This document shows, piece by piece, positions 27,911 to 49,149 of a stretch of DNA of 64,000 bases. Positions within the stretch are counted from its first letter, which is position 1. The number at the start of each line of letters is the position of its first letter. This DNA comes from Bradyrhizobium sp. AZCC 1719 (GTDB lineage Bacteria; Pseudomonadota; Alphaproteobacteria; Rhizobiales; Xanthobacteraceae), in the NCBI RefSeq assembly GCF_036924525.1, contig NZ_JAZHRU010000001.1, positions 7,097,001 to 7,161,000 of the forward strand, read 5' to 3'. The notes under the pieces are model-generated. The model was given only the letters and a program-made list of their open reading frames with translations, ran no database searches and was not told where the DNA came from. Position numbers and translations under genes: made by a program.

Positions 27911-28429
27911 TCATCGAGAACTACTGGGCGGGGGGTTGAGGATGCGGAGCAAACTGGGATCGTTCTGCAGGGTGTGAACACTAATCCCTAGGCCCCCGAG
28001 CGCATAGACGCCGATCGCAATCCCGCCGACGGCCCAATATCCCGTGGCGATTCCGCCGGCCCCGAGGCCTAGCGCCAGCGCCATTCCACCAATGCACAGG
28101 ATGCCGAGGCTGACGCCGCCGAACGCCACCACGCCCATCGCAACCCCACCAAAGGCGGCGAAGCCGACGGCGATATTACCCACAGCAATGATGCCGCGGG
28201 CGGGCCTTAAGCCGACAAGCCACGTCGGGCCAAGCATGACGTGGATGAGCGGCAGACCGAACAGAATTGTCTGTGACTTGTATTCATAGAAGTACGGCGG
28301 CCGTCCTGCCCACGCGCCGCTCGCCGCTGTTGCGGAACTTCGTTCCCGCAAAGGCCTGCCGCATTCGGGACAGGCCGTCGCCTGTTCGCTGATCTCCCGG
28401 CCACAATCCGCGCACCGCACCAAAGTCAT
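27911..28429 (-). CDS. Zinc-ribbon membrane protein
   Basis: A 172-residue protein. The N-terminus has two CxxC pairs (CADCGREISEQATACPECGR), a zinc ribbon of the kind found before membrane segments. From about residue 50 on it is strongly hydrophobic and Gly/Ala-rich (VAMGVVAFGGVSLGILCIGG, MALALGLGAGGIATGYWAVG), probably several short membrane helices. The ATG at 28427-28429 was chosen because it places the zinc ribbon at the start; a longer GTG frame (28498) is less plausible. It lies behind the SnoaL-like gene on the same strand, and may or may not belong to the modification operon. Function unknown. Confidence 0.65.
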   Translation of the reverse strand: MTLVRCADCGREISEQATACPECGRPLRERSSATAASGAWAGRPPYFYEYKSQTILFGLPLIHVMLGPTWLVGLRPARGIIAVGNIAVGFAAFGGVAMGVVAFGGVSLGILCIGGMALALGLGAGGIATGYWAVGGIAIGVYALGGLGISVHTLQNDPSLLRILNPPPSSSR

Positions 28430-28488
28430 CCTGGCATCTCCCGCTGTCCTGATGTGCAGGTTGCCCCATTTCTTAAATCGGAGCTGAA

Positions 28489-28842
28489 TCAGTTCCACAT
28501 ATGAACGGCGATGAGCCAGCCCGTTCGTTCGCGCGCGAATATGTTCAGCCAGTTGCCCTTGTAAGGACCGCCACCGCCGAGTCCCCGAAGTGTCCAGCGG
28601 CCCGACGCGACCAGAGAGGCATCCTTCGCGAACACGTCACCAAGATCGACAACATAGTCGCGAAAGCCTTGCGCGCGGATATCGGCAAAGAACGCGCAGA
28701 TCGCCTCCGCGCCGACGACGGTCGATCGTCCGGGCGGCACGATCCGCGCGTCCGGAGTGTAGAAGCGGGCCAGATCGGCGACCTTGCCTGAGTTGAATGT
28801 GTGAGCCCACTCATCGACGAGGGTTTGCGTCTGTTGCTGCAT
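28489..28842 (-). CDS. SnoaL/NTF2-like domain protein
   Basis: A 117-residue alpha+beta-barrel protein with the usual pattern of the NTF2-like superfamily. It has an N-terminal helix (VDEWAHTFNSGKVADLARFY), TPDARIVPPGRSTVVGAEAI, and late strands (GRWTLRGLGG, GWLIAVHMWN). It is like the DUF4440/SgcJ group of small stress or polyketide-type proteins. It starts 17 bases after the 303-residue unknown protein encoded in the radical SAM unit, with GGGAGAAAT upstream, so it is probably the last gene of that operon. A link to peptide modification is inference only. Confidence 0.7.
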   Translation of the reverse strand: MQQQTQTLVDEWAHTFNSGKVADLARFYTPDARIVPPGRSTVVGAEAICAFFADIRAQGFRDYVVDLGDVFAKDASLVASGRWTLRGLGGGGPYKGNWLNIFARERTGWLIAVHMWN

Positions 28843-28859
28843 GATTGACGATTTCTCCC

Positions 28860-29771
28860 TCATCTGTGTGCGAAATCATCGGGCGCGACGGCCTGCTGTT
28901 GTGCTACGCCAAGCAGAGGCCAGAAGACCCAGTCCTCAAGCGGACAGAGCGGCGTGATGGTCCCGTCCACACCGGCTGGTCGGATGCGCACGCTATCCGT
29001 CGACGGGTAGTCGAGCACAATGCGCGTCGCTCCGAGCCGACGGGCAAAGCTCTGCGAGCCGGAGATCGTTTCGACCTGAAGCGCCGCTCGCGGCCCATGG
29101 ATGAGCAGGAGGCGCGATCGGCCGCGCTCTTTCCTTGCCGCTTGGGCGAACGCCTCCGGCGGCATATCGGTCAGATAGTAGATGACTGTGTCTGGCGTCG
29201 TGAGGCGCGCGAGGCGTGGAAACCAGTGCCCTTGGAGCGGGAGCAACACCAGAGCGATGCCGTGCGCCCGGCGCAACAGGTCGGCGATGATGCGCAGCCG
29301 CGGCTCGGGCCGCTGACCCTGATGCAACAGGACCACCTGACTGAACCTCCGGTTCTTGCCAAGAAACGCCGCAAGCCGAAACAGCACGGAGAAGACGCAG
29401 ACATGGTGGATCGTATCGACCCAGAGTGGACCGAAACCGTCGAGCCCGCGCGCCTCGCGAACGTGGAGCGTATGCTCCACTGCGCCGAGATATCTCATCA
29501 CCTGATCCGTCGACATGTTCTGCATGACCAGCGGCTCAAAGGCGAAATCGATGATGTTCAGCGCGGCCTTCCGGTTGACTGCGTCAGGCAAGCTCATGAC
29601 GCCGCTGCGTGCGCGCAAGAGCATGTGGTCGAGGCGACTCCCGTCGACCTGCGCGATCAGGCGGTCGCGCACATGGCGGCTTGCGCTACTGGCGGCGAAG
29701 GCGTTGGCGACAAAGGTGTCGAACCTGTCGGCGGTCAGATCGAAGGCGCCAGCCGGCGTAATCGCGTTCAC
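28860..29771 (-). CDS. Unknown protein coupled to the radical SAM enzyme (303 aa)
   Basis: I do not recognise this family. The 303-residue protein has no cysteine-rich or catalytic motif that I can name. A middle hydrophobic stretch (DTIHHVCVFSVLFRLAAFLG) and Arg/His-rich parts are visible, and a Rossmann-like alternation (RFSQVVLLHQG, RLLLIHGPRAALQ) suggests an alpha/beta fold. Its GTG start overlaps the radical SAM stop codon by 4 bases (GTGA), which means translational coupling. It is therefore probably a dedicated partner of the modifying enzyme: a leader-binding, second modifying, or release protein. Its function cannot be read from the sequence. Confidence 0.7.
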   Translation of the reverse strand: MNAITPAGAFDLTADRFDTFVANAFAASSASRHVRDRLIAQVDGSRLDHMLLRARSGVMSLPDAVNRKAALNIIDFAFEPLVMQNMSTDQVMRYLGAVEHTLHVREARGLDGFGPLWVDTIHHVCVFSVLFRLAAFLGKNRRFSQVVLLHQGQRPEPRLRIIADLLRRAHGIALVLLPLQGHWFPRLARLTTPDTVIYYLTDMPPEAFAQAARKERGRSRLLLIHGPRAALQVETISGSQSFARRLGATRIVLDYPSTDSVRIRPAGVDGTITPLCPLEDWVFWPLLGVAQQQAVAPDDFAHR

Positions 29772-31489
29772 GGCTCTGAGCTCTCCAGCACCCCATCCGC
29801 TCCGGTCGGCCGGTGCGAACGCGCAGCCTCCAGCGCCGGTTCACCGGCAAAGAGCATCGCGCTGTCGATCTGCCGTCCGTGCAACACACTCACCTTTTCC
29901 AGCACGCGCGCCTGGGCAGCCTGCAGCGTGTCCAGCGAATGACGCTCGCCGGATTGCCTGGCCTCGACGGTCGCTTCCTCAGGGACCCATTGCTCGGCCG
30001 AGACCACACCGAGATCCTTGGCACGGCTAAAGATGTATTCGGCCGTATTCCATTTCCAGCTCGGACAGGGCAGCGCGGCCTCTGCCGGATTGCTGTAGAT
30101 GAAGCGATGTGCACAGAAGCCACCGCACATCGGCAATATCTTGCACGAGGCGCAAACCGGGTTGTCGAACGGCGTCCAATGGGACCACAGGCTGGCATTG
30201 ACGCTATCGTGGAGCTTGTCCGGCTCGAAGATGCTGCCCGTCCGCTTGCTGGGATCGTGCGCCGTCTCCCAGCACTTGTGCACGTCTCCCTCGCCCGACA
30301 CGACATAGCCGCCGTGCGAGGCCGCCACGCACATTCCGGCGAATCCGCTCGACGGCGTCTGGATGGATGCGAAGCCAAGACGGCGCGCGCGTTCCTCCAG
30401 AGCGAGCACCTTGCGATTGAATTCCGCGCGCGAGAGCCGCTCTTCGAAGGCGCTGCCGCTCTCCGGCGTTGAAGCCTCGATCGGCGCGAAGTAGACGCTG
30501 AAGTTGCCGCGCTTGGCGAAATTGCGCTCGACGAAACAATCGAGCATGGCATTGACGTTGTCGACGTTGGTTTGGCCGACATTGACGCGCGCATTGATCG
30601 AGATTGCAGTCTGGTCCAGCGCTTCGGCGATATTGTCGAGGATGCGGTCGAAGGTGCCGTGCCCTGACGTCAGGGGCCGCATCTTGTCGTGGGTTCCACG
30701 ATCGCCATCGATGGTCACCTGCACCCAGCGAACGCGACGCGTGTAGAGCTGGGCGGCCATTTCGCCGTTCAGGAACCAGGCGTTGGAGACGATTCCGGCG
30801 CTGTAGGCGATTTTGTGCTTGTCGCAATAGGAGATCAGCAGGTCCGACAGGCGAAAGATCGAATCCTTGCCCATCAGGGGCTCGCCGCCGTACCAGACGA
30901 CACTCAGCGATCTGAGATCCTTCTTTGCCTTGACGAAATCGACGATGGCATTCTGCACGTCGGGCTTCATCTTCGTCGTCGGCTTGTTCAGGCCCTGGAA
31001 ACAGTATCCGCAGGCGAAGTTGCAGGCCATGGTCGGCGCGATTGTAAGCGTGAGGCTGCCTTTGGCGCTCCGTGTCGCTTCGTAACTGTCGCGCACGACG
31101 GCAAACTCGTCGACCATCGCACCCACCACGTGACCACCGCCGACGAGCGCTTCGAGCAACAGGTGGTCGCTCACCTCTCTGCCTGAGAACGCCGGTCGTT
31201 CGGCCAACCCGCGATAGATCCCGGCCTCGCCATCGGACAGCAGGATGAGCGACCGTGTCCGCGAATTGAAAAGCAGCGCGGCGCCATCGGCAAGCCTGAC
31301 CGGAATGTCGTAGCGCGAGACTTTGTAGCGGCTCGCGCCCGGCTCCCGCTGGCGGCCATGAACGGTCGCCAGCGTCTGCCGGGCCGCCGCCTCCAGCGCA
31401 TCGGCTCGCGCAGAATTCTGCGCCGGCAATGCGATCTCGGCGGCCTGCGGCTCGCCGTCCTGGGAAACCTGGCATTCGAAATCTGGCAT
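29768..31489 (-). CDS. Radical SAM/SPASM domain protein (peptide-modifying maturase)
   Basis: A 573-residue maturase-type enzyme. The radical SAM cluster motif is C156-NFA-C160-GY-C163, after LTLTIAPTMA. The SPASM-like cysteine set is visible downstream: GDVHKCW, VCASCKILPMCGGFC and a later PCP. These are the ligands for auxiliary Fe-S clusters used by enzymes that form thioether, C-C or other crosslinks in ribosomal peptides. An N-terminal 140-residue region (SRYDIPVRLADGAALLFNSR) is typical of this group. The gene sits 18 bases behind the 166-residue gene and in front of the 303-residue gene in one unit. The natural substrate is probably the Cys-repeat protein encoded at 32002-33606. Confidence 0.92.
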   Translation of the reverse strand: MPDFECQVSQDGEPQAAEIALPAQNSARADALEAAARQTLATVHGRQREPGASRYKVSRYDIPVRLADGAALLFNSRTRSLILLSDGEAGIYRGLAERPAFSGREVSDHLLLEALVGGGHVVGAMVDEFAVVRDSYEATRSAKGSLTLTIAPTMACNFACGYCFQGLNKPTTKMKPDVQNAIVDFVKAKKDLRSLSVVWYGGEPLMGKDSIFRLSDLLISYCDKHKIAYSAGIVSNAWFLNGEMAAQLYTRRVRWVQVTIDGDRGTHDKMRPLTSGHGTFDRILDNIAEALDQTAISINARVNVGQTNVDNVNAMLDCFVERNFAKRGNFSVYFAPIEASTPESGSAFEERLSRAEFNRKVLALEERARRLGFASIQTPSSGFAGMCVAASHGGYVVSGEGDVHKCWETAHDPSKRTGSIFEPDKLHDSVNASLWSHWTPFDNPVCASCKILPMCGGFCAHRFIYSNPAEAALPCPSWKWNTAEYIFSRAKDLGVVSAEQWVPEEATVEARQSGERHSLDTLQAAQARVLEKVSVLHGRQIDSAMLFAGEPALEAARSHRPTGADGVLESSEP

Positions 31490-31507
31490 GGCTCGGTCCC
31501 GTGCTGG

Positions 31508-32008
31508 TTAGCGCATCTGCGACGGGGCGGATCGTGCCGCCGCGATCTGCGCCAGTGTTGTTTCCGCCAGGTTGGCAAGCATGTCGTTCCACAAGGCGAG
31601 GAAAGCATCCGCCCGGATCGAGGCATCGGCGATGGCGGTGCCGGAGGCCTCGTCGAGCGGCAGCCCGGTCAGCGTGACCACCCGCCGGTTGACCGCCATG
31701 ATAGTGAAATCTCCATGGCGGCCGATTCCGGTGATACGCAGAGCGAACCGGCCGCCCAGCGCTTCCAGATGGCGAACATCGTAGAGCTGTGGCAGCAATC
31801 CGAGCATCAGATGGCGGAAGAACGCGAAGTTTCCCGCCGCTCCGGCCGGGCTACGCCACGCGCCCTCCAGCAGCACCTCCGGCGTGAGCCGCACGCCTGA
31901 CATGAAGCTCGCAAGCGCGATCGGATTCGACACGTAGCGGCGGCCCGCCGCCGCGATCTCGCGCATGGTGATGCGCGCGGTGTGGTTGCGCATGTCGACC
32001 ATCAGCAT
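31508..32008 (-). CDS. Unknown protein coupled to the Cys-repeat protein (166 aa)
   Basis: A 166-residue protein that I do not recognise. It has helical blocks (FMSGVRLTPEVLLEGAW, NFAFFRHLMLGLLPQLYDV) and a compact beta part (RITGIGRHGDFTIMAVNRRV). No Cys is present and no signal peptide is seen, so it is probably cytoplasmic. Its ATG (32006-32008) overlaps the stop codon of the Cys-repeat gene (ATGCTGA), so the two are translated together. A leader-recognition, chaperone or immunity role for the repeat protein is a reasonable guess. A longer in-frame extension upstream runs through the repeat DNA in another frame and is rejected. Confidence 0.65.
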   Translation of the reverse strand: MLMVDMRNHTARITMREIAAAGRRYVSNPIALASFMSGVRLTPEVLLEGAWRSPAGAAGNFAFFRHLMLGLLPQLYDVRHLEALGGRFALRITGIGRHGDFTIMAVNRRVVTLTGLPLDEASGTAIADASIRADAFLALWNDMLANLAETTLAQIAAARSAPSQMR

Positions 32009-33606
32009 GATGGCAGCACCGGGATGACGTTCACCGCGCAGAACGAAATTGGATCCAGCACCGGCGCATCGACGCCGCAGACGCCGCCGAGATTGGCGGC
32101 ACACACGCCGGTATCGACGCCGCAGGCGTCGGCGCCCGCTTTGGCGGCGCAGGCATCCGCATCGGCCGCGCAGGCATCGAGCGAAGCGTTGGCCGCGCAA
32201 GCGTCGGCATCGGCGGCGCAGGCATCCGCCGACGCGTTGGCGGCGCACGCATCGGCATCGGCCGCGCAGGCCTCCGCGACCGCATCGGCCGCGCAGGCAG
32301 CGGCGTCAGCGGCGCAAGCTTCGACGGCCGCGTCGGCGCCGCAAGCGTTGCTGTCCGCCGCACAGGCTTCAGCGCCTGCATCGGCGCCGCACACATTGCC
32401 GTCAGCCCCGCAAGCTTCGACGGTGGCATCCGCGCCGCACACGTTGCCGTCCGCCACGCAGGCCTCCGCGCCTCCATCGACACCGCAGGCGTTGCCATCA
32501 GCCGCACAGGCTTCGACAGTGCCGTCCGCAGCGCAAGCGTTGCCGTCGACGCCGCAAGCGTCCGCCCCGACGTTGGTTCTACAGACATCTCCGTCTGCGG
32601 CGCAGGCCTGGATAGTGCCATCGGTCCCGCAGACGTTCCCATCCGTCCCGCACGCGCCGGCGCTACCCTTGGCGCCGCAGGCGAGGTTGCCGTCGACCCC
32701 GCAGAGCTTCGGCCCGCTATATTTCGAGCCACAATAGCTTCCGTCGACGCCGCAGGCCTTTCCTTCCGTAAACTTGGCGCCGCAGGTCGCATAGTTGACG
32801 GCGCAGACCGCACCGGCCCTGGCGTTCGCCGCACAGGCGCTTGCCTTGGCGACACACCCGGCACCGCCGCCCGCGGCGGCGCCACACGCACCGATGTCAG
32901 CGGCGCAAACCGTGCCTATCCCTGCAACGGCGGCACAGCCGGTTCCCTTTGCTCCGCACACCGTGCCTTCGCTGAGCTTGCCCACGCAGGGCGATGCGTT
33001 CGCTCCGCAGGCGGTGCCGATACCCACGTCGAAGCCGCAGGGCGTGATTGCGTTTGCTGCACAGGCTGCGCCGGCGCTCGCGTCGATGCCGCACGGCACG
33101 GTCGGACCGGACGCGGGCTGTGCGGCCGGCGCTCCTGTTGGAGGCGGAGCACTCGGTGCGGCGGTCGGGGGCGGTGCACTTGGCGTTCCGGTGGGAGGCG
33201 GCACGCTCGGCGTGCCTGTGGGAGGCGGAGCGCTCGGCCGCGGCGGCGAGCCCAGCGGCACATGCACGGTGTCGCCTGGATGAATCCGGTCCGGATCGCG
33301 AAACTGTGGATTGGCCTTGACCACGTCCGGGTAGGGACGATCGTACTGGCGCGAAATGCTCCAGAGCGACTCGCCTTCCTTGACGCGATGGTCGATGACG
33401 TTGTCGTTGGCGGCGGCATTGGCCCCTGCCCGTCCATCTTGGACTGCCGACGCACGGTCGGCGCGGGAGGCATCCCGAGGGGCGGCGTCAGGCCGGCTCG
33501 CGCGTTGCAAGCTCTCTGACCACGCCTGAGCGTCGCTGCTGCTTTCCTCTTTCTTCGCCGGCCGCTGTGAGCGGGCGGCGAGTGGCCTGTCGATGACCTT
33601 CGCCAT
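32002..33606 (-). CDS. LysM protein with a 44-cysteine C-x-x-D/N/K repeat (putative radical SAM substrate)
   Basis: A 534-residue three-part protein. Residues 1-70 are polar and disordered. Residues 73-118 form one LysM domain (VKEGESLWSISRQYDRPYPD, then RIHPGDTVHVPLG). Residues 119-170 are a Pro-rich linker with repeated SAPPPTGTP units. From residue 172 to the last residue it carries 44 Cys; none occur before. Of these, 43 begin C-x-x-X with X = Asp (25), Asn (9), Lys (7), Val or Ala (1 each). The Cys spacing alternates 10/7 and then 9/7. No signal peptide is seen, so any export would be by the T3SS or by another route. It is first in the radical SAM unit. The Asp three residues after Cys recalls the Cys-to-Asp thioether motif of ranthipeptides (C-x3-D in freyrasin), although the spacing differs. 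A structural Cys ladder without modification is the alternative. Confidence 0.85.
   Translation of the reverse strand: MAKVIDRPLAARSQRPAKKEESSSDAQAWSESLQRASRPDAAPRDASRADRASAVQDGRAGANAAANDNVIDHRVKEGESLWSISRQYDRPYPDVVKANPQFRDPDRIHPGDTVHVPLGSPPRPSAPPPTGTPSVPPPTGTPSAPPPTAAPSAPPPTGAPAAQPASGPTVPCGIDASAGAACAANAITPCGFDVGIGTACGANASPCVGKLSEGTVCGAKGTGCAAVAGIGTVCAADIGACGAAAGGGAGCVAKASACAANARAGAVCAVNYATCGAKFTEGKACGVDGSYCGSKYSGPKLCGVDGNLACGAKGSAGACGTDGNVCGTDGTIQACAADGDVCRTNVGADACGVDGNACAADGTVEACAADGNACGVDGGAEACVADGNVCGADATVEACGADGNVCGADAGAEACAADSNACGADAAVEACAADAAACAADAVAEACAADADACAANASADACAADADACAANASLDACAADADACAAKAGADACGVDTGVCAANLGGVCGVDAPVLDPISFCAVNVIPVLPSC
32101..32679 (-). repeat. Array of twelve 48-bp coding units (Cys 9/7 spacing)
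   Basis: In the 3' part of the Cys-repeat gene, successive Cys codons lie 9, 7, 9, 7 ... residues apart from residue 310 to 502, that is twelve units of 16 codons. Units read like CAADADACAANASADA. The units are similar but not identical at DNA level, so expansion is old or under selection. It is coding, not CRISPR. Confidence 0.85.
32730..33039 (-). repeat. Array of six 51-bp coding units (Cys 10/7 spacing)
   Basis: In the 5' part of the Cys region the Cys spacing is 10, 7, 10, 7 ... (residues 190 to 292, six units of 17 codons). After position 302 (spacing 8 and then 9) it changes to a 16-codon register. The Asp/Lys content of the fourth position also differs from the later array. Confidence 0.75.
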
Positions 33607-33806: not shown

Positions 33807-36800
33807 TCAGCCGAGAATAGCCTCGCCGAACAGCACCCGTGCATAGTCGCGGAGAGCCGTCATGCTTCGTGGATTGGGATCTTCGATTCGTGCCGGGTAC
33901 CAGCTTCCCGGCACGGCACGATACTCGCCCCGGAAACGATGATCCTGCGGATCATACAGGTAGCTTCCGCCGAACTCCGGATGTTTGCCGGGAGGTGCCC
34001 ACACGTTGCGATCGTTGGATGCCGTAAGCGGGAAGCGCCCCGAATCGTCCTGATCGACCGTGTGTGCCTGATCGACGAGATCGCGTACCTTGTCGGGATC
34101 CATGCGATTGAGCCGCTCCATCAACTGCTCGGGCGTCACGCCGAACTGGCTGGCGGTCGTCGCAAGTGCAGGCCCGGCACTGCCGCCATCATTGTTGCTG
34201 TAGTCGGACAGCGCCGCAGCGATCTCCGGCCGATAGCCGGCCGCCTCGAGGAATTCGCGGCTCGGCCCCTCGAATCGAGCCTTGTCCTTTGCGTCGCTAT
34301 AGAAATAGAGACCGATTGCGGAGGCGAGCACCAGGCCCGCGCCCACCGGCCCGCCCCACGTCGCCAGCCAGCCGCCGCTCGAGGCGACAGAGCCGGCCGC
34401 CATCAGGAAGCCACCGCCGGCGCTCGTCGTATAGAGGCCGGAGGCAATCCAGTCGCCACGGGCGGCCGCATCGATTGCGAAGGCGCTGTCGATTAATCCG
34501 CCTCCGATCTTGAAGTAGGTCGAGAACTTGACCCAGCCCGGCTCGAGCGCAAGCCCGGTGCGGTTTGCCTTTGCGAGAATGGATGTCGAAAGACGCTCGG
34601 CGCCCGGCATGGCACCCAGACCGAGCCAGCCGCGCTGCGCGCCGACGGCAAGCAGTTCGGCCGTTTCCTTGCCCGTGCCGATTGAGTAGTAGACCGCCTT
34701 GGTCATGTTGAGCAGATGGCCGGGGTCCTTTGCGAACTTGTCCCATGCCAGCGCCGCCTGATAGCCGTTGAAGGCAGCACCAAGACCGTTCATGCCGCCA
34801 AGGAAGGCGGACGCCTTCTTCGGATCGAGCTTGACCTCCTGGCCGGTTCCGAAAATATCGCGGACGGTGTTCGACGCGGTCGCTCCCGCGGAGGGAATGG
34901 CGGCGGTTGTGCCGGCGCCGAGATCGACGACCGCGCTTGATGAGGACGGCTGCGACGTCATCAACGCGTTGCCAAGCTCTTTGACAAAGCCTCTGGTGCT
35001 GCTGACCGATGAGTTCGGCGTGGCTGACGGCGACAACGTCCCCGCCTCCTGTCCAAGCACAATGCGCAACACCTCCTTGCTGCCCTTGTCGCTCAGTCCC
35101 ATCGCGAACTGCACTTCCTTGCTGCCGACGAACTCATTGCGCGTCCCAGTCAGCCGCTCCGTCGTCGGCAGCCCCTGCAGCCGCGGCAACGCATTGTTCA
35201 GCGCCATGCTGGTGCGCACCGCGCTATAACCCAACCCATCGACCGCGTTGTATGCGCGATCGAAGTTCGGCAGCAGATCCGGCCGGTTGGCGACGTATTC
35301 GATGGTGGCGCGATCGAGCTGCTCTGGCGACATCGTGCCCGACCAGTCGGCGCGCAGGCGGCTCACCTCGGCAGTCGCATCGCCGAAGGCCTTCACATCG
35401 TCCTTGATCCTGCCGTGCAGGATCTCGACCCCGACCTGGGTTGCGCTAAGCAGGCTGTCGGCCTCGCCGGTCCGGCCAGTGTCCTTGAGTTGCGTCGCCA
35501 TCTCCAGCGCCAGCGTCGCGCCGGTGCCGTCGCTGACGGATTGCATCACGGCTTCCTGGTAGGCAGGCAGCGGATAGGCCGGGCTGTTCTGTACGTGCGG
35601 CTGGAATTTTTCGCTCGGCAGGTGCCGCACCATGATGTCGGCGACCTGCCGCGTCACCTCCGCACCATCATTGCCGCGCGCGGCGTAGTCCGTTGCGGTG
35701 GCAATATTCTTGTAGACGCCGGCGACGTCCTGATATTCGATCGGTCCGCCTTCGGTGAGGCTGCGCTTCATGTCGGCGGCAATGCCGTCGATCGTCGCCA
35801 GACTTGCCGCGACGATACGCTCCGCCGTCTCCGGTGAGACGTTTTCCGTCTGCTGACGCAGCGCCTCGGCCGCGGCCTTGGCGTCGCCCGTTCGGTAGGC
35901 GTTGCGCACGGCGTCGACACCGGGCTGCACGGTCTTGTTGTACGTCGCCTGGTCGACGATCTCGTTGAACGCGGCGTCGTCGGGACCGTGCTGCTGGATC
36001 AAGGCCGCGCGCGCACCGATTGCCATCTCACGCTGCTCAGGCGGCACCTGCTCGGCCACGCTGTCGAGCTGCCGCTCGATTTCCTCGCGCAAAGCCGTCC
36101 GTTGCGTTTCGAGATTCTGCTCAAGACCGGCCAGTCGTGCCTGCTCAGGGCCGGCGTTGCGCGCCGCATCGACGTCGCGTTGCGCCTGCGCCACCGCGCC
36201 ATACTTGTCGACGACAGTGCCGAGCGTGTCGCGGGTCCAGCCTTGGCGACGCCATTCGTCGGTCACGGTGCGATAGGCGGTTTCAATCGTATCCCCAACC
36301 TTGGGGTCATTGGGGCGGCTTCGCCTGAGCTCGTCGATCTGCGGGAGGACAGCTTCCTCAGGATAAGGCTTACCGGTCCCGATGCGGCGTAGCTGCCCCT
36401 CGACCTCCGTTCGCACGTTGCCCCATGCCGTGCCTGCGGCGTTTCGCGCCTCCTGCAGCTCCGCGTTGGCAAGCCGTCGCTCGCTCGGCGTCGCATTCGG
36501 ATCATGCGCCATAGCCTCGAGCGACGCGAGCGAGCGGTCGGCCGCCTGCGCATCGCTTACCAATCCGTTCAGCTCGGTCTGGGTCGTCCCGGCCTGACGC
36601 CATTCCCTGTCGACCGCCGCCCGCGCATTCTCAACCGTCTCCTGATACTTCGGATCGTCGGGAACCCGACCACGGATTTCATCCAGCGCGGGACCCGTCG
36701 CCACGTCCGGCAGCGCCGTGTTGCGCCCTGCTTCGCGCAGCTCGTTCTCCACGGAACGCTGAATGTCGCCCCAGCGCTTCGATACCTCGCCGCGCGCATC

Positions 36801-37322
36801 CTCCAATTCGATGCTCGCAAGTTTGCGCGCTGACGGCGTGGAGTTGGGATCGCGCGCCAATCGTTCCAGCGACGCCACGTTTTCTTCCGCGCGGTGGGCG
36901 CCGCCGACTTGCTCGCGCGCGCGCACCACGCGCGGATCGGCATTTGGCACGAACGCGACGTCGCCGGGCTTGATGACGTTGGGATCGCGAAGCTGCTTGT
37001 TGGCCTTCAGAACATCGGAAAACGGCGCGCGATACTCCTTTGAAATCCCGTAAAGGGTGTCGCCGGGCTTTACTTCATGCGGGATCTCGTTTCCGCGCAC
37101 AGCTTGCGGATTTCCATCGATGCGGCTGCGCTCGCGCTGTGTCTTCTGCAGGGCGGCATCGAACTCCGGATCGGTTTGCCCGGCAGCGGCGCCGCGGTCG
37201 TTCCGGGCGACGCCCGGCTGTACCTGGTTAGCATTTGCCCGGGACATCCTTCGATCGTCCGCTTGCTCGGGAGTCGTTCGCTGCTTCTCCGAGACGCTCC
37301 GCGCAGGGCTTGCACCAGACAT
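33807..37322 (-). CDS. Large LysM-domain protein, candidate T3SS-associated secreted protein
   Basis: A 1171-residue protein. About 75 polar residues precede one LysM domain (VKPGDTLYGISKEYRAPFSD, VIKPGDVAFVPNA), very similar to the LysM of the Cys-repeat protein. A long Ala/Arg/Glu-rich helical region follows, with a repeated LAxxELxDAR/RxxWGxxR-like block near residues 150-330. Late in the protein there is a glycine-rich hydrophobic stretch (GGWLATWGGPVGAGLVLASA). There is no signal peptide. The ATG at 37320-37322 is preceded by GGAG 10 bases upstream; an upstream TTG start (37346) is less likely. A tts-like box lies about 160 bases upstream. It could be an effector, translocon-like or surface-bound protein; no enzymatic motif was found. 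Confidence 0.75.
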   Translation of the reverse strand: MSGASPARSVSEKQRTTPEQADDRRMSRANANQVQPGVARNDRGAAAGQTDPEFDAALQKTQRERSRIDGNPQAVRGNEIPHEVKPGDTLYGISKEYRAPFSDVLKANKQLRDPNVIKPGDVAFVPNADPRVVRAREQVGGAHRAEENVASLERLARDPNSTPSARKLASIELEDARGEVSKRWGDIQRSVENELREAGRNTALPDVATGPALDEIRGRVPDDPKYQETVENARAAVDREWRQAGTTQTELNGLVSDAQAADRSLASLEAMAHDPNATPSERRLANAELQEARNAAGTAWGNVRTEVEGQLRRIGTGKPYPEEAVLPQIDELRRSRPNDPKVGDTIETAYRTVTDEWRRQGWTRDTLGTVVDKYGAVAQAQRDVDAARNAGPEQARLAGLEQNLETQRTALREEIERQLDSVAEQVPPEQREMAIGARAALIQQHGPDDAAFNEIVDQATYNKTVQPGVDAVRNAYRTGDAKAAAEALRQQTENVSPETAERIVAASLATIDGIAADMKRSLTEGGPIEYQDVAGVYKNIATATDYAARGNDGAEVTRQVADIMVRHLPSEKFQPHVQNSPAYPLPAYQEAVMQSVSDGTGATLALEMATQLKDTGRTGEADSLLSATQVGVEILHGRIKDDVKAFGDATAEVSRLRADWSGTMSPEQLDRATIEYVANRPDLLPNFDRAYNAVDGLGYSAVRTSMALNNALPRLQGLPTTERLTGTRNEFVGSKEVQFAMGLSDKGSKEVLRIVLGQEAGTLSPSATPNSSVSSTRGFVKELGNALMTSQPSSSSAVVDLGAGTTAAIPSAGATASNTVRDIFGTGQEVKLDPKKASAFLGGMNGLGAAFNGYQAALAWDKFAKDPGHLLNMTKAVYYSIGTGKETAELLAVGAQRGWLGLGAMPGAERLSTSILAKANRTGLALEPGWVKFSTYFKIGGGLIDSAFAIDAAARGDWIASGLYTTSAGGGFLMAAGSVASSGGWLATWGGPVGAGLVLASAIGLYFYSDAKDKARFEGPSREFLEAAGYRPEIAAALSDYSNNDGGSAGPALATTASQFGVTPEQLMERLNRMDPDKVRDLVDQAHTVDQDDSGRFPLTASNDRNVWAPPGKHPEFGGSYLYDPQDHRFRGEYRAVPGSWYPARIEDPNPRSMTALRDYARVLFGEAILG

Positions 37323-37479
37323 CGATTTAACTCCGGTCCTCAACAAGATTAGGCATCAGAAATGGCAGCATCTGCCGCACGCGCGTCCTCGATCCGGGCG
37401 ACGCCTTACGTCTTCAATTCGGTGGTTCGCGCCGCACGAGATGGACATACGGCCGACGCCGATCGGTCAGCAGATTTTC

Positions 37480-38188: not shown

Positions 38189-39472
38189 TCAGGCCGCCTG
38201 TGAAAGGTCCTGTTGTCCACCGTCCGCTCCGCCGAGCAGGCGTCCGAGCAGTGACACGACCGTCGTCAGGGCATCCTTTTCGTTCTGCGGGAGGTTGAGA
38301 CGATCGACCAGCGACGAGAGCGTGCTCAGGATCTGATCGAACGGACCGCCGCGGGCTCCGTCCTGCTGGTGGGCCGGAGCAACGTCACCGCCCTCACCGG
38401 CCCGCGGAGCCGCAACGGGCTGAGGCTGCTGGCCACCGCCAACGCTGCCGGCGCCGTTCATCACGCGACCGAGCAGCGACACCACCGTCTTGAGCGCGTC
38501 CTTCTCCTGCGGCGACAGGTTCAGCCCGTCGATCACACCGTTGAGATTCTGCAGGATCTGATCGTCGGTACCGCCAGTACCCTGGGTCGGCCCAGTTCCT
38601 GCATAACCGTCAATATCCTTGATATTGTTTCCGGTGATTTCCTGGCCGTTCGGCAGCACGAGATCATCGATCTCGCCGTTCTTCGCCTTCATGACAGTGC
38701 CGTCTTCATACTGCTGATCGAGCGCCTGCCCTTGTCCGGACTTCAGCTCGGTCTTCAGATTGCCTTGGAAGCCGGTCATTTCGGCAGCCTGATCGCCGCG
38801 CGTAATGGCGACCTTTTCGATGTAGGTCTTGCCTTCGCCATTGGTCGGATCGATCGTGATCTTGGTGCCGTCGGGCAGTTCGAAGGTCGCGGCCTTGCGA
38901 TGGAAGTCGGTCTTGTCACCGTCGCCGGTCTCGATATGAGGGTCTCCCCAGACCTTGAACTTCTTGCCGGTCTGCTTGTCGGTGACTTCCAACTGGCCCT
39001 TGTGTTCAGTGCTGGCGGTGATGCAGTAGCGGCCGGTGTCGACCGTGTTGCCGTTGACCTTGAACGGTTCGCCCGACCCGCCACAGGACGAGCCGCCGGA
39101 GCTCGGAGGCGTGGTCGGCTCAGTCGGTTCGGCCCCGCCGCTGCCATTGCAGCCGCAATCGCCACCCGGCCGACGCCCGCCGCCGCCCAGGACATCGTCA
39201 CTGGCAAGCTGGCGCACGAGGCCGGAGAAGGACTGAAGCGCCGAACCCTGCGCATTCGGATCCTGGCCGGCCGAAACGAAGTTCAGTGCTCCCGTGATCA
39301 ACCTGACGCGTTCGCCGTCGCTCCATTGATCGCCGGACTGGCCAGCGCTTTTCAGAATATTTGCGAAGATCGACGCCACGTCCTGCTGCTCGTTCTGCTG
39401 TACGCCCCCGCCCGCAAGTTGCCCGAGGCGATCGGCATTGCCCGTCATACGCTGTGCGACATCTGAAATCAT
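38189..39472 (-). CDS. DUF1521 (MIIA) domain protein, NopE-like candidate T3SS effector
   Basis: A 427-residue protein. Its centre carries KFKVWGDPHIETGDGDKTDF, with GDPH at residues 176-179. This is the signature of the DUF1521 / metal-ion-inducible autocleavage domain of NopE1 from Bradyrhizobium japonicum, which cuts itself between Asp and Pro of this motif in response to calcium. The N-terminus is polar with no signal peptide, as expected for a T3 substrate. The C-terminus contains two similar helical blocks (DQILQNLNGVIDGLNLSPQE at 304-323 and DQILSTLSSLVDRLNLPQNE at 379-398, each followed by KDAL-TVVSLLGR). NopE1 has two such domains and this protein one. A tts-like box with a near-perfect core lies upstream. 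Confidence 0.88.
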   Translation of the reverse strand: MISDVAQRMTGNADRLGQLAGGGVQQNEQQDVASIFANILKSAGQSGDQWSDGERVRLITGALNFVSAGQDPNAQGSALQSFSGLVRQLASDDVLGGGGRRPGGDCGCNGSGGAEPTEPTTPPSSGGSSCGGSGEPFKVNGNTVDTGRYCITASTEHKGQLEVTDKQTGKKFKVWGDPHIETGDGDKTDFHRKAATFELPDGTKITIDPTNGEGKTYIEKVAITRGDQAAEMTGFQGNLKTELKSGQGQALDQQYEDGTVMKAKNGEIDDLVLPNGQEITGNNIKDIDGYAGTGPTQGTGGTDDQILQNLNGVIDGLNLSPQEKDALKTVVSLLGRVMNGAGSVGGGQQPQPVAAPRAGEGGDVAPAHQQDGARGGPFDQILSTLSSLVDRLNLPQNEKDALTTVVSLLGRLLGGADGGQQDLSQAA

Positions 39473-41701: not shown

Positions 41702-43864
41702 TCATCCGACGGCCGGTACGACACCCTGTGGAAACGATCCAGATCGCGGAGCCGTATCGGAGCCAAAGCTCCCGGCGAGTCCAATCGTACCGACCGGCTG
41801 AATGGTAAAGTCGCTCGCCAACTCTTGATATGAAAGCACAGGAATGTCCAGACCGTTGCGCACGAGGAAGCCGCGCACGAAGCGGCGGATATCCATTGAC
41901 GTCAAAATCACCGGCCGATTGCGATCCGAATGCGCATTTGCTCCGATGCGGCGAACCCTTTGCAAGAGCCCTTCCGAAACCTTGTCCTCCAGAACGAGAT
42001 AGGGACCGACCGCGGTATCACGGACTGCGCTGCGGATCGTGTCTTCTGCAGCACGCTCGATCATGTAGGCAGGTACAATCCTGTGGGCGTTCGCATATTT
42101 ATGACAGATTTGCCGCTTCAGTGCGGCGCGGACGTACTCGGTCAGAAGCACGACATTCGGCTCCTTTTCGCCCCATTCGGCGAGCGCTTCGAGGACCAGC
42201 CGCGGATTGCGGACCGAGACGCCTTCGTCGACCAAGCGCCGCAGCACATCGGCGATCCTCTGCACCGGGGTGGCACGCGTCACTTCCTTCACAAGTTCGC
42301 CATACCGGCCTTCCAGCCGCGTGAGCAGCGCCCTGGTTTCCTGAATGCCGATAAATCGTGCAGCATTGCGCGCGAGCACCTCTTGCGCACGGGCCGCGAT
42401 GACATCCGTGCAGTCGCAGTAGCCGATGCCGGCCGCCGACAGCGAACTCTCGTGTGCTGCATCGATCCAGACCTGATCGGACGATCTGGCATCGCCATCG
42501 GTCTGCGCCGAGATGCCGGCGAGTTCCAAATTCACGGGATCGTCACACAGCAGCAGCCGCTGCGGATCCACGTAACCCTCCTCAACCGGTACGCCTTCCA
42601 CCTCGATCCGAAATCGTGACGTGCCAAGCGTCGAATCGAAAACGACGCCAACCTCCGGTATCAGAATGCCCAGCGTATCGGCCAAACTGGCACGCGAAGC
42701 ATCAAGCTTCGATCGCAGATTCTGCATCTCTGCCGTGGAGCGCAGATCGTCCGCCAGCAGAACGATGACCGGCGGCGCTTCTGCAGGCGCCGCCTGGCGC
42801 ATCTCTCGCGTGCGCGACGGGGCGTTCGCGCGCGCGTCGCCTGCTCTCGCCATGTCTTCTTTGGCGATCCCCGCATCCTCGTCGCCCGCATTCGATCTCG
42901 TTCCTGCGACCAGGCTTCCGGCGCCGAACGCAAGCGCAAGCACCAGGAATACCGCCGTCGGAAAGCCGGGGATCAAGCCCATGGCAAGCAGGACGATGGC
43001 AGCCAGCCACAGCGCGCGCCGATCTGCGGATAGCTGGCCGGCGATATCGCGTCCGAGGTCCAGCCGGCTGTCGCCCGTTACTCGCGTGACGACCGTCGCC
43101 GCGGTAATCGAAAGCATCAATGCGGGAATTTGCGAAATCAGCGCATCGCCGATCGTCAGCAAGGTGTACTCGCGCACAGCTTGAACCAACGGCATGCCGC
43201 GGCTCAACGTGCCGACCGCGATGCCGCCGATCAGGTTCACGACAATGACGACCAGCCCGGCGATGGCGTCGCCCTTGACGAACTTCATGGCGCCGTCCAT
43301 CGCCCCGTAGAGCTGGCTTTCCTGCTCGAGGCGACCGCGCCGGCGCCTTGCCTCGACCTGATCGATGTCGCCATTTCGCACTTCGGCGTCGATCGCCATC
43401 TGCTTTCCCGGCAGCGCATCGAGAATGAAGCGCGCACCTACTTCGGCGACGCGCTCCGCGCCCTTCGCGATGACGATGAACTGCACCACCGTGATGATCA
43501 GGAAGACCACCAGGCCGACCAGAACGCTGCCGGCGATGACAAATTCGCCGAATGTCCGGACGATGTCGCCTGCATTGGCCTGGGTGAGAATGAGGCGGGT
43601 CGTGCTGATGGTGAGCGCCAACCGGAAGACCGTCGACAGCAATATGATGCCCGGCAATGTAGAGAATTCGAGCGGGCTCAGCACATAGAGCGACACCATC
43701 AGCAACAGAACTGCAAATCCGAGATTGAAGCCGATCAGCAGGTCGACCAGCAGCAATGGCATGGGGAGGATCATCATCGCGACGGTGAGTATGAGCACCA
43801 GCGCGATCATCAAATCCGGACTGCCGGGCGCCCGGGCGACCAGCGTCTTCAGTCGTTCCATCAT
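41702..43864 (-). CDS. sctV: T3SS export gate protein SctV (FlhA/RhcV family)
   Basis: A 720-residue inner-membrane export-gate protein. The N-terminal half has about eight membrane segments (LMIALVLILTVAMMILPMPL, LLVDLLIGFNLGFAVLLLMV) and the conserved cytoplasmic loop with RFILDALPGKQMAIDAEVRN and GAMDGAMKFVKGDAIAGLVV. The C-terminal half is the soluble domain that forms the nonameric ring and receives export substrates. Length is normal for the family. Its ATG overlaps the stop of the TPR gene upstream (ATGA). An ATG three bases later is equally possible. Confidence 0.96.
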   Translation of the reverse strand: MMERLKTLVARAPGSPDLMIALVLILTVAMMILPMPLLLVDLLIGFNLGFAVLLLMVSLYVLSPLEFSTLPGIILLSTVFRLALTISTTRLILTQANAGDIVRTFGEFVIAGSVLVGLVVFLIITVVQFIVIAKGAERVAEVGARFILDALPGKQMAIDAEVRNGDIDQVEARRRRGRLEQESQLYGAMDGAMKFVKGDAIAGLVVIVVNLIGGIAVGTLSRGMPLVQAVREYTLLTIGDALISQIPALMLSITAATVVTRVTGDSRLDLGRDIAGQLSADRRALWLAAIVLLAMGLIPGFPTAVFLVLALAFGAGSLVAGTRSNAGDEDAGIAKEDMARAGDARANAPSRTREMRQAAPAEAPPVIVLLADDLRSTAEMQNLRSKLDASRASLADTLGILIPEVGVVFDSTLGTSRFRIEVEGVPVEEGYVDPQRLLLCDDPVNLELAGISAQTDGDARSSDQVWIDAAHESSLSAAGIGYCDCTDVIAARAQEVLARNAARFIGIQETRALLTRLEGRYGELVKEVTRATPVQRIADVLRRLVDEGVSVRNPRLVLEALAEWGEKEPNVVLLTEYVRAALKRQICHKYANAHRIVPAYMIERAAEDTIRSAVRDTAVGPYLVLEDKVSEGLLQRVRRIGANAHSDRNRPVILTSMDIRRFVRGFLVRNGLDIPVLSYQELASDFTIQPVGTIGLAGSFGSDTAPRSGSFPQGVVPAVG

Positions 43865-44268
43865 TCGCGCCCTCCATGCGATCGGGCAACTACAAACTGA
43901 TCAAATCGCCGGCGTGCGTCGGCCATCTGCCCCTCGAGACGCAGCGCATGGCTTCGCAGCAACAGAAGCGGCGCCTCCGATGCCGGATTGGTATCCAGAT
44001 CGTCCAGGCGATCGATGGCGGCGAGCGCGGCCGCCCCGTCCTTGTTCGCGAGGTGCGCGTACGCCATTATCCTGATTGCTTCGACATCGTCCGGCCGCGC
44101 CCGCACGACGAGGCGTAGCAGTGCAAGCGCGCGGCGGCATTGTCCGCAGGCCACATAGACGTAGGCGAGCGCGGAGAGCAGATCGCGCTGGTCGGAGCCG
44201 ACAATCGCGCCTGAACGATGCGGCGGCTGATCGTCGGACGGGTCGGGCTTCCGCATCACGCCACGCAT
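43861..44268 (-). CDS. Small TPR protein of the T3SS operon (candidate needle-subunit chaperone)
   Basis: A 135-residue protein with two or three TPR-like helices (DLLSALAYVYVACGQCRRAL, ALLRLVVRARPDDVEAIRIM, AYAHLANKDGAAALAAI). It sits between a small unknown gene and sctV and overlaps sctV by 4 bases. In animal-pathogen systems a similar TPR protein (YscG/SctG) guards the needle subunit. That comparison fits size and place but not detailed sequence. No signal peptide, so cytoplasmic. Confidence is good for a TPR protein, low for the role. Confidence 0.75.
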   Translation of the reverse strand: MRGVMRKPDPSDDQPPHRSGAIVGSDQRDLLSALAYVYVACGQCRRALALLRLVVRARPDDVEAIRIMAYAHLANKDGAAALAAIDRLDDLDTNPASEAPLLLLRSHALRLEGQMADARRRFDQFVVARSHGGRE

Positions 44269-44274
44269 GGCGGG

Positions 44275-44661
44275 CTAACCTTCGACCAGGCTGTTGCTGT
44301 TCTGGCGCAATTGCGACAGCCGCTTGAGTTCGCGCCGGATGGTTAGCACCCCCTCGCGAACGAGTCGCTCGTCTGCGCTGCCTGCAAGGTCCGACTGCAG
44401 TTGCTCGAGCAACGCGCGATGGCGCTCGGCCTGCAGGACGTGCGGATTGCGCAGCCGCGGCATCACGAATGTCATCAGCGCGTCGACCAGATTTCGACCT
44501 GCAAAGCCCGAAGCGGCGTCGGGCCGATCGGCCCGCGAAATGATGGTTTGCGCCTCGTCCAGATGCCTGCGGGTGACGCTGTCAAGGCCCGGCGCGGCGA
44601 GCGTTCGTTCGATCGCGGCGTCGAGGCGCACGGCGGGCGGCAGGCTGGTCAGCTTGGGCAT
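44275..44661 (-). CDS. Small helical T3SS-operon protein, unrecognised
   Basis: A 128-residue helical, Arg/Leu-rich protein with blocks DSVTRRHLDEAQTIISRAD and VLTIRRELKRLSQLRQNSNS. No family was recognised. It lies between sctD and the small TPR protein, 6 bases before the latter's start, so it is part of the operon. Accessory proteins of this size are common at this point in T3SS operons (needle co-chaperone or regulator). The start is either the ATG at 44661 or a GTG at 44670. Confidence 0.6.
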   Translation of the reverse strand: MPKLTSLPPAVRLDAAIERTLAAPGLDSVTRRHLDEAQTIISRADRPDAASGFAGRNLVDALMTFVMPRLRNPHVLQAERHRALLEQLQSDLAGSADERLVREGVLTIRRELKRLSQLRQNSNSLVEG

Positions 44662-44694
44662 CGTCCGCACCCCGCTCCGGTCAAGGTGAACGCA

Positions 44695-45681
44695 TCAGTA
44701 ACGAACTGCGACAAGCTTCCCCTCGCGCCGCAGCAGGACTTTCTCGGCCTCGATGCGCTCGATCGCCCATCCGCCATCGAGCATGGCGCCCTCGAGGTAC
44801 TTCTGACCTCTGATGAGAAGGTGAGGATGGGCTCCGCGCCACACGCCTTCGATGGACAGCGACAGCGGGACCTTTTCTGCCCTGACGCTGACGCCGTTCA
44901 CAAGCGTGATGTCGCCTTCAAAGCGTTCGTCGAACCATCTTTGAACGGTCTGCCATTGCGCCGCAGCCTTCGGATCGATGGTCCCGGTCGCGGCGACGAT
45001 TCCGACCCCAGGCTCGACCAGAACATTCAGGATGCCCATGCGCTCGACTTCCGCCCGCATGGCATCGGCCGCAGCCTTGACCGCGTCGGATCCGGGATCG
45101 GGAATGCTAAGGCCACCTTCGCGCTCACGCTGCACCGCCTGTCTGACGATCCCAGTCACCGGGATATCGGTCGGGTTCGCGGCTGAAGCGAGCCAAGTCT
45201 GCCGCAGATCCGCGTGAATCGCACCGGCCGTTTGCGAAATCGGCGCGTCCGCCAGCGAGTGCATCATCAATGCGATCGAGAGGATGCTGACCAGTCCCAC
45301 CCCCATCAGCAAACGCGACCGCGACATTGAAACGCCGAACAGGCCGCCGCGCGATTGCGGGGCCGGATCGTCGGCGCGGCTGAAATGCAACTGCGCGGCG
45401 CCAATGTTCATTCGCAAAGGCGTTGCAACCGCCTGTCGTGCTCCGGCTGCAAGATACTTCTGCGGGCCGACCGAAATCCTGCCCGCCAACGCCTCGACCT
45501 GAAGCTCGGCTCCGGAGGTATCGATCAAGGCATGAAGGCGTTCGACGTCGGCTTCCATGAGCACGATGTCGGCATCCATCGAGCTGCCGATCGTGTAACG
45601 CCCGGGCGCGAAGGCATGCGACGAACCGGCATACAGCCCGGACTCAATTGACATTGTCAGACAATTGGGCGGTAACGACAT
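44695..45681 (-). CDS. sctD: T3SS inner-membrane ring protein SctD
   Basis: A 328-residue SctD (RhcD/YscD) type protein. The N-terminal ~110 residues are the FHA-like cytoplasmic domain (GRYTIGSSMDADIVLMEADV). One membrane segment follows (LLMGVGLVSILSIALMM), and then the periplasmic part with BON-like repeats (DAMRAEVERMGILNVLVEPG, WFDERFEGDITLVNGVSVRA). The order is that of the outer ring of the inner-membrane platform. It is preceded by two small Gly-rich genes and followed by sctV and its partners on the same strand. Confidence 0.9.
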   Translation of the reverse strand: MSLPPNCLTMSIESGLYAGSSHAFAPGRYTIGSSMDADIVLMEADVERLHALIDTSGAELQVEALAGRISVGPQKYLAAGARQAVATPLRMNIGAAQLHFSRADDPAPQSRGGLFGVSMSRSRLLMGVGLVSILSIALMMHSLADAPISQTAGAIHADLRQTWLASAANPTDIPVTGIVRQAVQREREGGLSIPDPGSDAVKAAADAMRAEVERMGILNVLVEPGVGIVAATGTIDPKAAAQWQTVQRWFDERFEGDITLVNGVSVRAEKVPLSLSIEGVWRGAHPHLLIRGQKYLEGAMLDGGWAIERIEAEKVLLRREGKLVAVRY

Positions 45682-45807
45682 GGCTCGCTCCGATTCTTCG
45701 TGGCTGGAAGCCCCGCGTTCTGCAAGGCGGTTCCGAGGCGGGCTCGGAATGAAGACGAGTGCGCGATGCGCGCCATGGAGCGCGCACCGCGATGTCTGAG
45801 CAGACGA

Positions 45808-46029
45808 TTACTGAACGCGCTCGTCGGCCACTTTCTTCTGCGTGTTCTGGTCGACCTGCAGGCGACGCAGCTCCATGCTCTTCTGCATGGATTCCTGATA
45901 CGTCTGCTTGAGCTGGTCCATCATGGCCTGGAAATCGCCGCCGGCCGCGCCGCCGCCGTTACCGCCGCCAGCGACGGCACCCGCCGCCGCGTTCACGACG
46001 TTGCCGACACCACCTAGTACTCCGCCCAT
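45808..46029 (-). CDS. Small Gly-rich T3SS-operon protein, possible needle/translocator subunit (copy 2)
   Basis: A 73-residue protein. The N-terminal third is glycine- and alanine-rich (MGGVLGGVGNVVNAAAGAVA). The rest is a charged amphipathic helix (FQAMMDQLKQTYQESMQKSM, ELRRLQVDQNTQKKVADER). The ATG has AGGAGA 6 bases upstream. Size, composition and position before sctD are suitable for a T3SS needle (SctF) or other small secreted subunit, but no family motif allows a firm call. It resembles the protein encoded just upstream in its MG-VLG start. Confidence 0.55.
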   Translation of the reverse strand: MGGVLGGVGNVVNAAAGAVAGGGNGGGAAGGDFQAMMDQLKQTYQESMQKSMELRRLQVDQNTQKKVADERVQ

Positions 46030-46211
46030 TGTTCATCTCCTGTCGTTGATGTCCTGGATGTCTTTGCCGTCTTCGTCACGCCTTGGCCTCCGACTGCTGT
46101 CGAGCCACGACGCGACGTCCATCAGGCTGCCGCGCAGAGGCGGCAACCTGAAGCCTTGTGTTCGAATCGCACCTCATCGAGCGCATGTTCTTCACGAACG
46201 ACGCTCTAACC

Positions 46212-46628: not shown

Positions 46629-46687
46629 GAGGTCGGCTTTTTGAGGAAGGAGAAATAGAGGATGTGGACAACCGCTCAGCGCGGACT

Positions 46688-49123: not shown

Positions 49124-49149
49124 GGTTGGCGTTTCCGGCAAAGGACTTC

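Follow-up and report, generated by a model that had tools for sequence, protein, structure and literature searches.

What does a radical S-adenosylmethionine (SAM) enzyme of the SPASM type act on when its operon opens with a 534-amino-acid (aa) LysM protein containing 44 cysteines? We addressed this question in a 64-kb stretch (7097001-7161000) of the 7.2-Mb genome of Bradyrhizobium sp. AZCC 1719 (hereafter the window; all operon coordinates are window positions), where the operon occupies positions 27911-33606 of the minus strand and encodes, in order, the LysM/Cys-repeat protein, a 166-aa protein, the radical SAM/SPASM enzyme, a 303-aa protein, a SnoaL-like protein and a 195-aa protein. Our preferred answer, to which we assign a probability of roughly 60%, is that this is a split-precursor system for a ribosomally synthesized and post-translationally modified peptide (RiPP), in which the SPASM enzyme would use the 166-aa protein as a leader in trans to crosslink the 44-Cys LysM protein. 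We favor this answer because of leader homology, conservation of the cysteines, co-occurrence of the substrate, the maturase and one type of type III secretion system (T3SS), and the structure of the operon itself.

The genes are closely coupled. An earlier note on this DNA had described four coupled minus-strand genes, and both its coordinates and its couplings proved correct when checked: the ATG of the 166-aa gene (31508-32008) overlaps the stop codon of the Cys-repeat gene (32002-33606), 18 bases separate the 166-aa gene from the radical SAM/SPASM gene (29768-31489), and the latter meets the 303-aa gene (28860-29771) in a GTGA overlap. Two further genes extend the operon, namely a SnoaL/NTF2-like gene (28489-28863), joined to the 303-aa gene by an ATGA overlap, and an overlapping gene for a 195-aa protein with an N-terminal CxxC...CxxC (27911-28498), each present in 11 of 15 loci.

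Central to our reading is the 166-aa protein, at first regarded as an unknown. Judged by homology, it is a detached RiPP leader domain, since relatives carry homologous leaders fused to Cys-rich cores. In a Parvularcula metagenome-assembled genome (MAG), the domain (109 bits, with E-values referring to a four-sequence set) opens a 940-aa protein encoded directly upstream of the maturase, in which the leader domain is followed by PPC domains and a Cys-rich end. Two proteins of 361 aa each, P0068 and P0070, unite leader, GMP[AS]GGK, Cys repeats and a tail (DPVSACAVNVIPGLPSC) nearly identical to that of the Bradyrhizobium substrate in one chain; their junction reads ISD[AT]ELQLYGMP[AS]GGK, and their cores are built of C-x-x-[DN] at spacings mainly of 7 and 10. 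Run on 64 sequences, a profile of 89 stand-alone homologues of the 166-aa protein matched P0068 with 118 bits (8e-37) and P0070 with 112 bits (8e-35). Likewise, profile-profile comparison of 62 GG-type leaders with the 89 stand-alone proteins gave an E-value of 1.7e-7 and a score of 53.6 over 156 columns, as against 9.8 for the reversed control and 18.2 for the best of 20 column shuffles. Leaders from a Magnetococcales locus (L079) and from its relatives terminate in ...ELSDDQLEAVAGG or a similar sequence, and related precursors of the Magnetococcales type have leaders with ...SDDQLEAVAGG; L079 taken alone matches the 166-aa family weakly, at 7 bits. A leader end of the D-x-x-L...GG pattern was found in 65 of 71 single-chain matches. 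Leader and core, which lie in two genes in the window, thus form one chain in the Parvularcula protein, in P0068 and P0070 and in the GG-type relatives, and the window encodes, together with the core, a protein homologous to RiPP leaders. On these comparisons the precursor has likely been split in two, with the leader acting in trans and the core standing alone. The 166-aa protein and the substrate start with a similar M..[VI]D motif, which would fit a duplicated precursor whose two copies each lost a different half. No solved structure is related by sequence to the 166-aa protein at E-values up to 10; its AlphaFold2 model (pLDDT 89.6) yielded only weak fold matches, several of them to SCP-2 domains.

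The same homology could be explained if the 166-aa protein were a leader descendant turned chaperone or secretion escort, with the maturase reading the N-terminus of the substrate (MAKVIDRP) or its tail. Substrate N-termini in Bradyrhizobium and Methylobacteriaceae follow M..[VI][VI]D[KR]P and resemble the start of the single-chain leaders (MQFVDKP), the tail is highly conserved, and most stand-alone 166-aa proteins lack a GG end (GG within the last 25 residues in 5 of 91, and none at the end of the protein in the window). Against this, the N-terminal likeness spans only about five residues, and the leader domain is preserved over its full length, not at its end alone, and accompanies the maturase in 14 of 15 loci. 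We consider an escort role unlikely, if worth keeping in mind, and retain that of a trans-acting leader.

The putative substrate, or core half of the split precursor, contains a single LysM domain (residues 73-117, 33256-33390; Pfam PF01476, E 5.8e-9) and 44 Cys, the first at residue 172, in agreement with the LysM-fused, 44-Cys protein originally described. Its 364-aa Cys-repeat core (32005-33096) has C-x-x-[DNK] repeats with Cys spacings mainly of 7, 9 and 10, and closes with a conserved tail, DPISFCAVNVIPVLPSC (32005-32055). All 44 Cys are invariant across five Bradyrhizobium homologues (L003, L004, L005, L007 and L008; L006, which has a run of N, was left out), and 43 of 44 remain so after three Methylobacteriaceae sequences (L010, L011 and L014) are added. 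The Cys codons show 5-12 synonymous differences per pair, with no replacements within Bradyrhizobium and one against each Methylobacteriaceae sequence. Because the cysteines are invariant while their codons differ synonymously, the protein is, by this measure, under strong selection. The third residue after Cys is Asp at 25, Asn at 9 and Lys at 7 sites, so that D, N or K occupies 41 of the 44 positions, compared with a mean of 7.9 and a maximum of 18 in 5000 permutations. The "about 40" C-x-x-D motifs first reported number 25 with Asp and 34 with Asp or Asn.

Bradyrhizobium and Methylobacteriaceae substrates whose C-terminus lies in the sequence retain the tail consensus, DP[IV]SFCA[VI]NVIP[VL]LPSC; the tail is recognizable in Rhodomicrobium and Shimia substrates and in P0068 and P0070, partly so in Magnetococcales precursors and CefA, and absent from the Parvularcula substrate. 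LysM is present in the Bradyrhizobium and Methylobacteriaceae substrates whose N-terminus lies in the sequence, and none was seen in those of Rhodomicrobium (L013), Shimia or Parvularcula; LysM anchoring, as first proposed, is therefore not a general trait. Rhodomicrobium encodes three tandem Cys-repeat substrates before one 166-aa gene and one maturase (L013:3690-7416, L095:8101-11827). In the Shimia substrate (L016:1840-3507), Thr takes seven Cys slots (TGAN four times, TGAG three times), mostly 17 residues apart and alternating with Cys.

The 573-aa maturase scores 439.4 bits against TIGR04463, whose cut-off is 525, and is thus related to that equivalog but outside it; its next-scoring models are Clo7bot, FlmE/OhkG, CefB, geopeptide and PapB. 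Both types of cysteine motif recognized from the outset are present, and they are invariant in nine aligned sequences (L015 left out) with identities down to 37%, which places the enzyme among SPASM proteins: C156, C160 and C163 form the radical SAM CxxxCxxC motif within CNFACGYC (residues 156-163, 31001-31024), and C387, C406, C446, C449, C455, C459 and C475 are the seven SPASM cysteines (residues 387-475, 30065-30331). By sequence, the nearest solved relative is 5wgg (E 9.5e-12), which we take to be CteB, a ranthipeptide maturase. The maturase gave no Pfam match to PqqD, the type of RiPP recognition element looked for; divergent elements of this kind often escape detection. The nearest other maturase loci found, 98% identical, are from Bradyrhizobium. 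In Rhodomicrobium udaipurense, the maturase frame (L015, G190:C41:897-2534) has one in-frame stop, from either a sequencing error or a broken gene.

If the maturase crosslinks these cysteines, which chemistry is involved? The Asp of C-x-x-D had been put forward as the general acceptor, a view that the mixed +3 position (25 Asp, 9 Asn and 7 Lys among 44) does not bear out. We rejected Asp as a universal acceptor on that ground and because relatives most often have Ala: in 62 single-chain cores, Ala accounts for 49% of the +3 residues and Asp for 31%. As the seven Thr slots of the Shimia substrate still have Asn (four) or Gly (three) at +3, this residue may instead be a fold position, and we do not take it as established that every C-x-x-D forms a Cys-Asp thioether. 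Nor does the distance between Cys and acceptor decide anything by itself, because PapB is lax in spacing, accepting Cys-Xn-Asp with n = 0-6 (PMC9413430). There is a substantial chance, somewhat short of even, that the link is of the sactionine type, from sulfur to an alpha carbon, or another modification altogether, and not a thioether to an Asp or Asn side chain; a +3 position that is D, N or K here and most often A in single-chain relatives would suit a backbone-carbon acceptor indifferent to side chains. Pointing the other way are the nearest solved relative, 5wgg (CteB), and the PapB model, which also scores, at 99 bits and below its cut-off.

A further possibility is that the maturase leaves the Cys repeats alone and acts on the tail only or on another peptide, the repeats instead forming disulfides or binding metal. 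Many Cys-rich repeat proteins are of this kind, and the Thr in seven Cys slots of the Shimia substrate would agree with it. We nevertheless regard it as improbable, given the strict co-occurrence with the maturase described below and the related cores that stand behind GG leaders beside a related maturase. There is, moreover, no gene room between the substrate, 166-aa and maturase genes for another peptide; in the rest of the locus, no search was aimed at peptide genes of less than 60 aa.

Co-occurrence is indeed tight. Among 146 Bradyrhizobium genomes, the substrate tail is found in six, and a maturase of 89-100% identity in the same six, all other maturase matches having at most 34% identity. 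A survey of 249 genomes of the order found the 303-aa protein in five, one being a 23-residue scrap; the remaining four are exactly the genomes in which the maturase match reaches at least 66% identity. Fifteen maturase loci all encode the 303-aa protein, and 14 encode both the 166-aa domain and a Cys-rich open reading frame (ORF) upstream of the maturase, the exception for both being L009, whose contig begins inside the maturase; of the 14 Cys-rich ORFs, those of L012 and L015 show only the ORF end, and that of L006 has a run of N. Within this close group (6/146 genomes, 14/15 loci), precursor, 166-aa and 303-aa proteins thus occur with the maturase, as the earlier note had wished to see checked. 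Since tail and maturase share the same six genomes and the Cys-rich ORF accompanies 14 of 15 maturases, the two patterns it held to be incompatible with its proposal, a substrate without the maturase and a maturase with another substrate, do not appear there. What stands of that proposal, on the strength of this co-occurrence, is one maturase together with a giant many-Cys substrate; Asp as acceptor and LysM anchoring as a rule do not.

Wider surveys looked for further loci. TIGR04463 matched 4 of 398 genomes of the phylum at 1e-60, namely the genome of the window, G171, G035 (230 bits) and Magnetococcales G447 (3 of 14 control genomes also match, below the cut-off), and 1 of 385 genomes of the class at 1e-80, that of the window. 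The Parvularcula maturase matched 1 of 130 genomes of its order, its own. Plasmid searches returned 15 records of at most 38% identity with the maturase and no match with P0068. We also inspected the surroundings of 15 maturases that share about 27-33% identity (L080-L094), a contig end truncating some of these loci. None showed a giant Cys repeat; a small Cys-rich peptide (filter: at least 6 Cys and 5%) lies near at least three of the maturases. In three Bradyrhizobium loci (L086, L087 and L088), maturases of 32-33% identity adjoin a 156-aa peptide frame that contains 10-11 Cys (SACPTEACSTKVCANHTCQSVSC) and represents a Cys-rich system of another kind.

The 303-aa protein, also first listed as an unknown, is predicted by structure modeling to have an acyltransferase fold of the PatA/LpxM (LpxL/PatA) type, and may add an acyl group to the product. 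Acyltransferases of the LpxL/PatA type have the catalytic motif HX4(D/E); in the 303-aa protein this motif is absent, H122 and H123 being invariant and the +5 position being F127 or the invariant S128. No solved structure is related to it by sequence at E-values up to 10.

How would a product of this size leave the cell? The substrate has no hydrophobic stretch at its N-terminus, and upstream of its gene lie a second LysM protein, a DUF1521 protein and T3SS genes. The second LysM protein (33807-37346, minus strand; 1179 aa, start codon uncertain) has a LysM domain that shares about 50% identity with the one in the substrate, likewise has no hydrophobic N-terminus, and occurs in Bradyrhizobium loci and not in the Methylobacteriaceae stretches examined. 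It is followed by the DUF1521 (MIIA, NopE-type) protein of the T3SS locus (38189-39472, minus strand; Pfam E 1e-17) and by SctV, the export gate (41702-43864, minus strand; Pfam FHIPEP, 6.7e-209). The rest of the T3SS locus (43861-56191) comprises a TPR protein, SctX, SctD and SctC on the minus strand and SctJ, SctK-like, SctL, SctN, SctO, SctQ, SctR, SctT and SctU on the plus strand, the names SctL, SctN, SctO, SctR, SctT and SctU being presumed from gene order.

SctV of 89-100% identity is found in exactly the six of 146 Bradyrhizobium genomes that have substrate and maturase; the next SctV is at 62%, and any SctV at 1e-250 is found in 67 of 146. In Methylobacterium jeotgali (L100), a single 20-kb stretch reads SctD-SctX-TPR-SctV-DUF4781-DUF1521-substrate-166-maturase-303-SnoaL-195-secretin, and in a Methylobacteriaceae MAG (L101/L102) T3SS genes, secretin and then the cluster share one contig. 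SctV of at least 45% identity was found in 18 of 20 genome records (six of which appear to be the same assemblies twice, and Rhodomicrobium G190 was counted without a neighbor check), these 18 being all the genomes with split precursors that were searched. In the Parvularcula and Magnetococcales genomes, SctV matches reach at most 36%, apart from a 154-residue fragment (51%) in Magnetococcales.

The cluster might merely share a genomic island with the T3SS, without a functional tie, and we give this explanation a sizable share of the probability, below one half. The Rhodomicrobium and Shimia loci, which stand apart from T3SS genes, weigh against a tie, as does Parvularcula, which has an ABC exporter instead; T3SS and cluster lie on different contigs in both Rhodomicrobium genomes, Shimia, G1105 (LHD-71), G275 and G1107 (M. 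aquaticum). A functional link is favored by the linkage that two families, with 55-77% identity between their proteins, have both retained, by the M. jeotgali cluster lying between SctV and secretin, and by the SctV of at least 45% identity in every split genome searched. The Parvularcula cluster encodes an HlyD-type protein, an ATP-binding cassette (ABC) protein (motifs by eye) and a C39-peptidase ABC protein; this locus has both a GG leader and a C39 exporter, a pairing not found in the window. In the window genome the nearest C39 match is about 960 kb away; such a match at 1e-10 is missing in 4 of 12 split genomes, and the nearest on a known maturase contig is at 41 kb (G286), the maturase contig not being placed for G1107 and G1110. 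From this one fused locus we infer, as the simplest story, a switch of export route, with a C39-ABC exporter serving the fused precursor and the T3SS the split one; sequence context thus suggests that the product is possibly exported by the T3SS.

A secretin (58755-60203, minus strand; Pfam PF00263, 5.6e-43) with a pilus N-terminal domain stands beside a CpaD-type pilus protein (together 58054-60203), like parts of a Tad pilus. As a secretin homologue also adjoins SctV in Rhodomicrobium (L107) and Shimia (L108), the neighboring T3SS may use a Tad-like outer-membrane channel.

Taken together, a split-precursor system would operate as follows. The overlapping start and stop codons would couple translation, yielding leader and core together, and the leader domain would dock on the maturase. 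The maturase would then convert many of the 44 Cys into thioethers, acting repeatedly along the 16-17-residue repeats and tying each Cys to a nearby residue; such local links would leave the chain thread-like and hence still exportable. The 303-aa protein with its acyltransferase fold would perhaps add an acyl group. Lacking a hydrophobic N-terminus and a GG site, the product would exit via the neighboring T3SS, not via a C39-peptidase ABC exporter of the Parvularcula type, to become a cross-linked surface or effector protein that binds peptidoglycan or chitin. In its boldest form this becomes a T3SS with its own RiPP factory, in which a trans leader, up to 44 staples and perhaps acylation yield a LysM rod threaded out as a fiber directed at the cell wall or host; we offer this fuller picture tentatively and think it unlikely to hold in every part.

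If correct, the system would represent a natural RiPP leader split off as a protein of its own, and both the fused and the split arrangement would still exist among its living relatives. It would also be the first case known to us in which a radical SAM maturase of RiPPs is tied to a locus for type III secretion; none of the papers searched combines radical SAM and RiPP with type III secretion and Bradyrhizobium. It would extend the logic of RiPPs beyond small peptides, to large repeat proteins that carry wall-binding domains, provide a ready-made trans-leader maturase for protein stapling, and open to testing whether type III systems carry covalently cross-linked substrates.

How does this system compare with those already known? 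The earlier note knew of no described peptide family of this layout. This is partly incorrect, as NCBI curates the related TIGR04463 and the "Cys-every-fifth" pair CefA/CefB, although, as far as we searched, these appear uncharacterized. A literature search for TIGR04463 found no paper, and searches on CefA, Cys-rich, ranthipeptide and trans-leader returned no title describing such a system. These uncharacterized TIGR04463/CefA systems are the closest known, and the Bradyrhizobium system is related to both families and outside them. On plasmid pRS11DPr1 of Methylomagnum ishizawai, a true TIGR04463 member (589.6 bits) adjoins a CefA (NF038108; L097:5900-7939) fused to ricin-type lectin and beta/gamma-crystallin domains. 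The two systems share a related maturase (38-39% identity), a long Cys-rich Ala/Gly core, a tail of similar shape (CALDIIPIIPGI in CefA, CAVNVIPVLPSC in the Bradyrhizobium substrate) and binding modules ahead of the core, lectin and crystallin in the one and LysM in the other. With this lectin- and crystallin-fused CefA as precedent, the fusion of RiPP cores with binding modules may prove more widespread. The two systems differ in that the Bradyrhizobium maturase falls under the cut-off, the Cys spacing is mainly 7, 9 and 10 instead of 5, and a separate leader protein, the 303-aa protein and a T3SS are present; NF038108 did not match the Bradyrhizobium substrate at E-values up to 1, which places it outside CefA.

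The single-chain precursors of Magnetococcales, Hwanghaeella and Curvivirga (among P0001-P0071) resemble our system in having a leader homologous to the 166-aa protein, a Cys-rich core and, in those inspected, a C-x-[VI]NVIP-type tail, but in them leader and core form a single chain, GG marks the cleavage site and the Cys are mainly spaced at 5 residues; the Magnetococcales locus L079 in addition has a B12 radical SAM C-methyltransferase. QhpD is a SPASM enzyme that crosslinks a structural protein and not a small peptide, namely the gamma subunit of quinohemoprotein amine dehydrogenase, in which it makes a few links and is not known to involve repeats or a trans leader, unlike the system described here; its model scores 75 bits on the Bradyrhizobium maturase. 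PapB, the freyrasin maturase, is likewise a SPASM enzyme that makes several Cys-Asp/Glu thioethers on one precursor (PMC9413430), but it acts at six sites of a short peptide with an attached leader, and its model gives 99 bits on the Bradyrhizobium maturase against a cut-off of 340. T3SS clusters encode DUF1521 proteins of the NopE type, which are T3SS-secreted (PMC6506597); here such a protein is a neighbor of the cluster and not part of the system itself. Compared with the known families, what is unusual about the Bradyrhizobium system is the detached leader together with the T3SS neighborhood.

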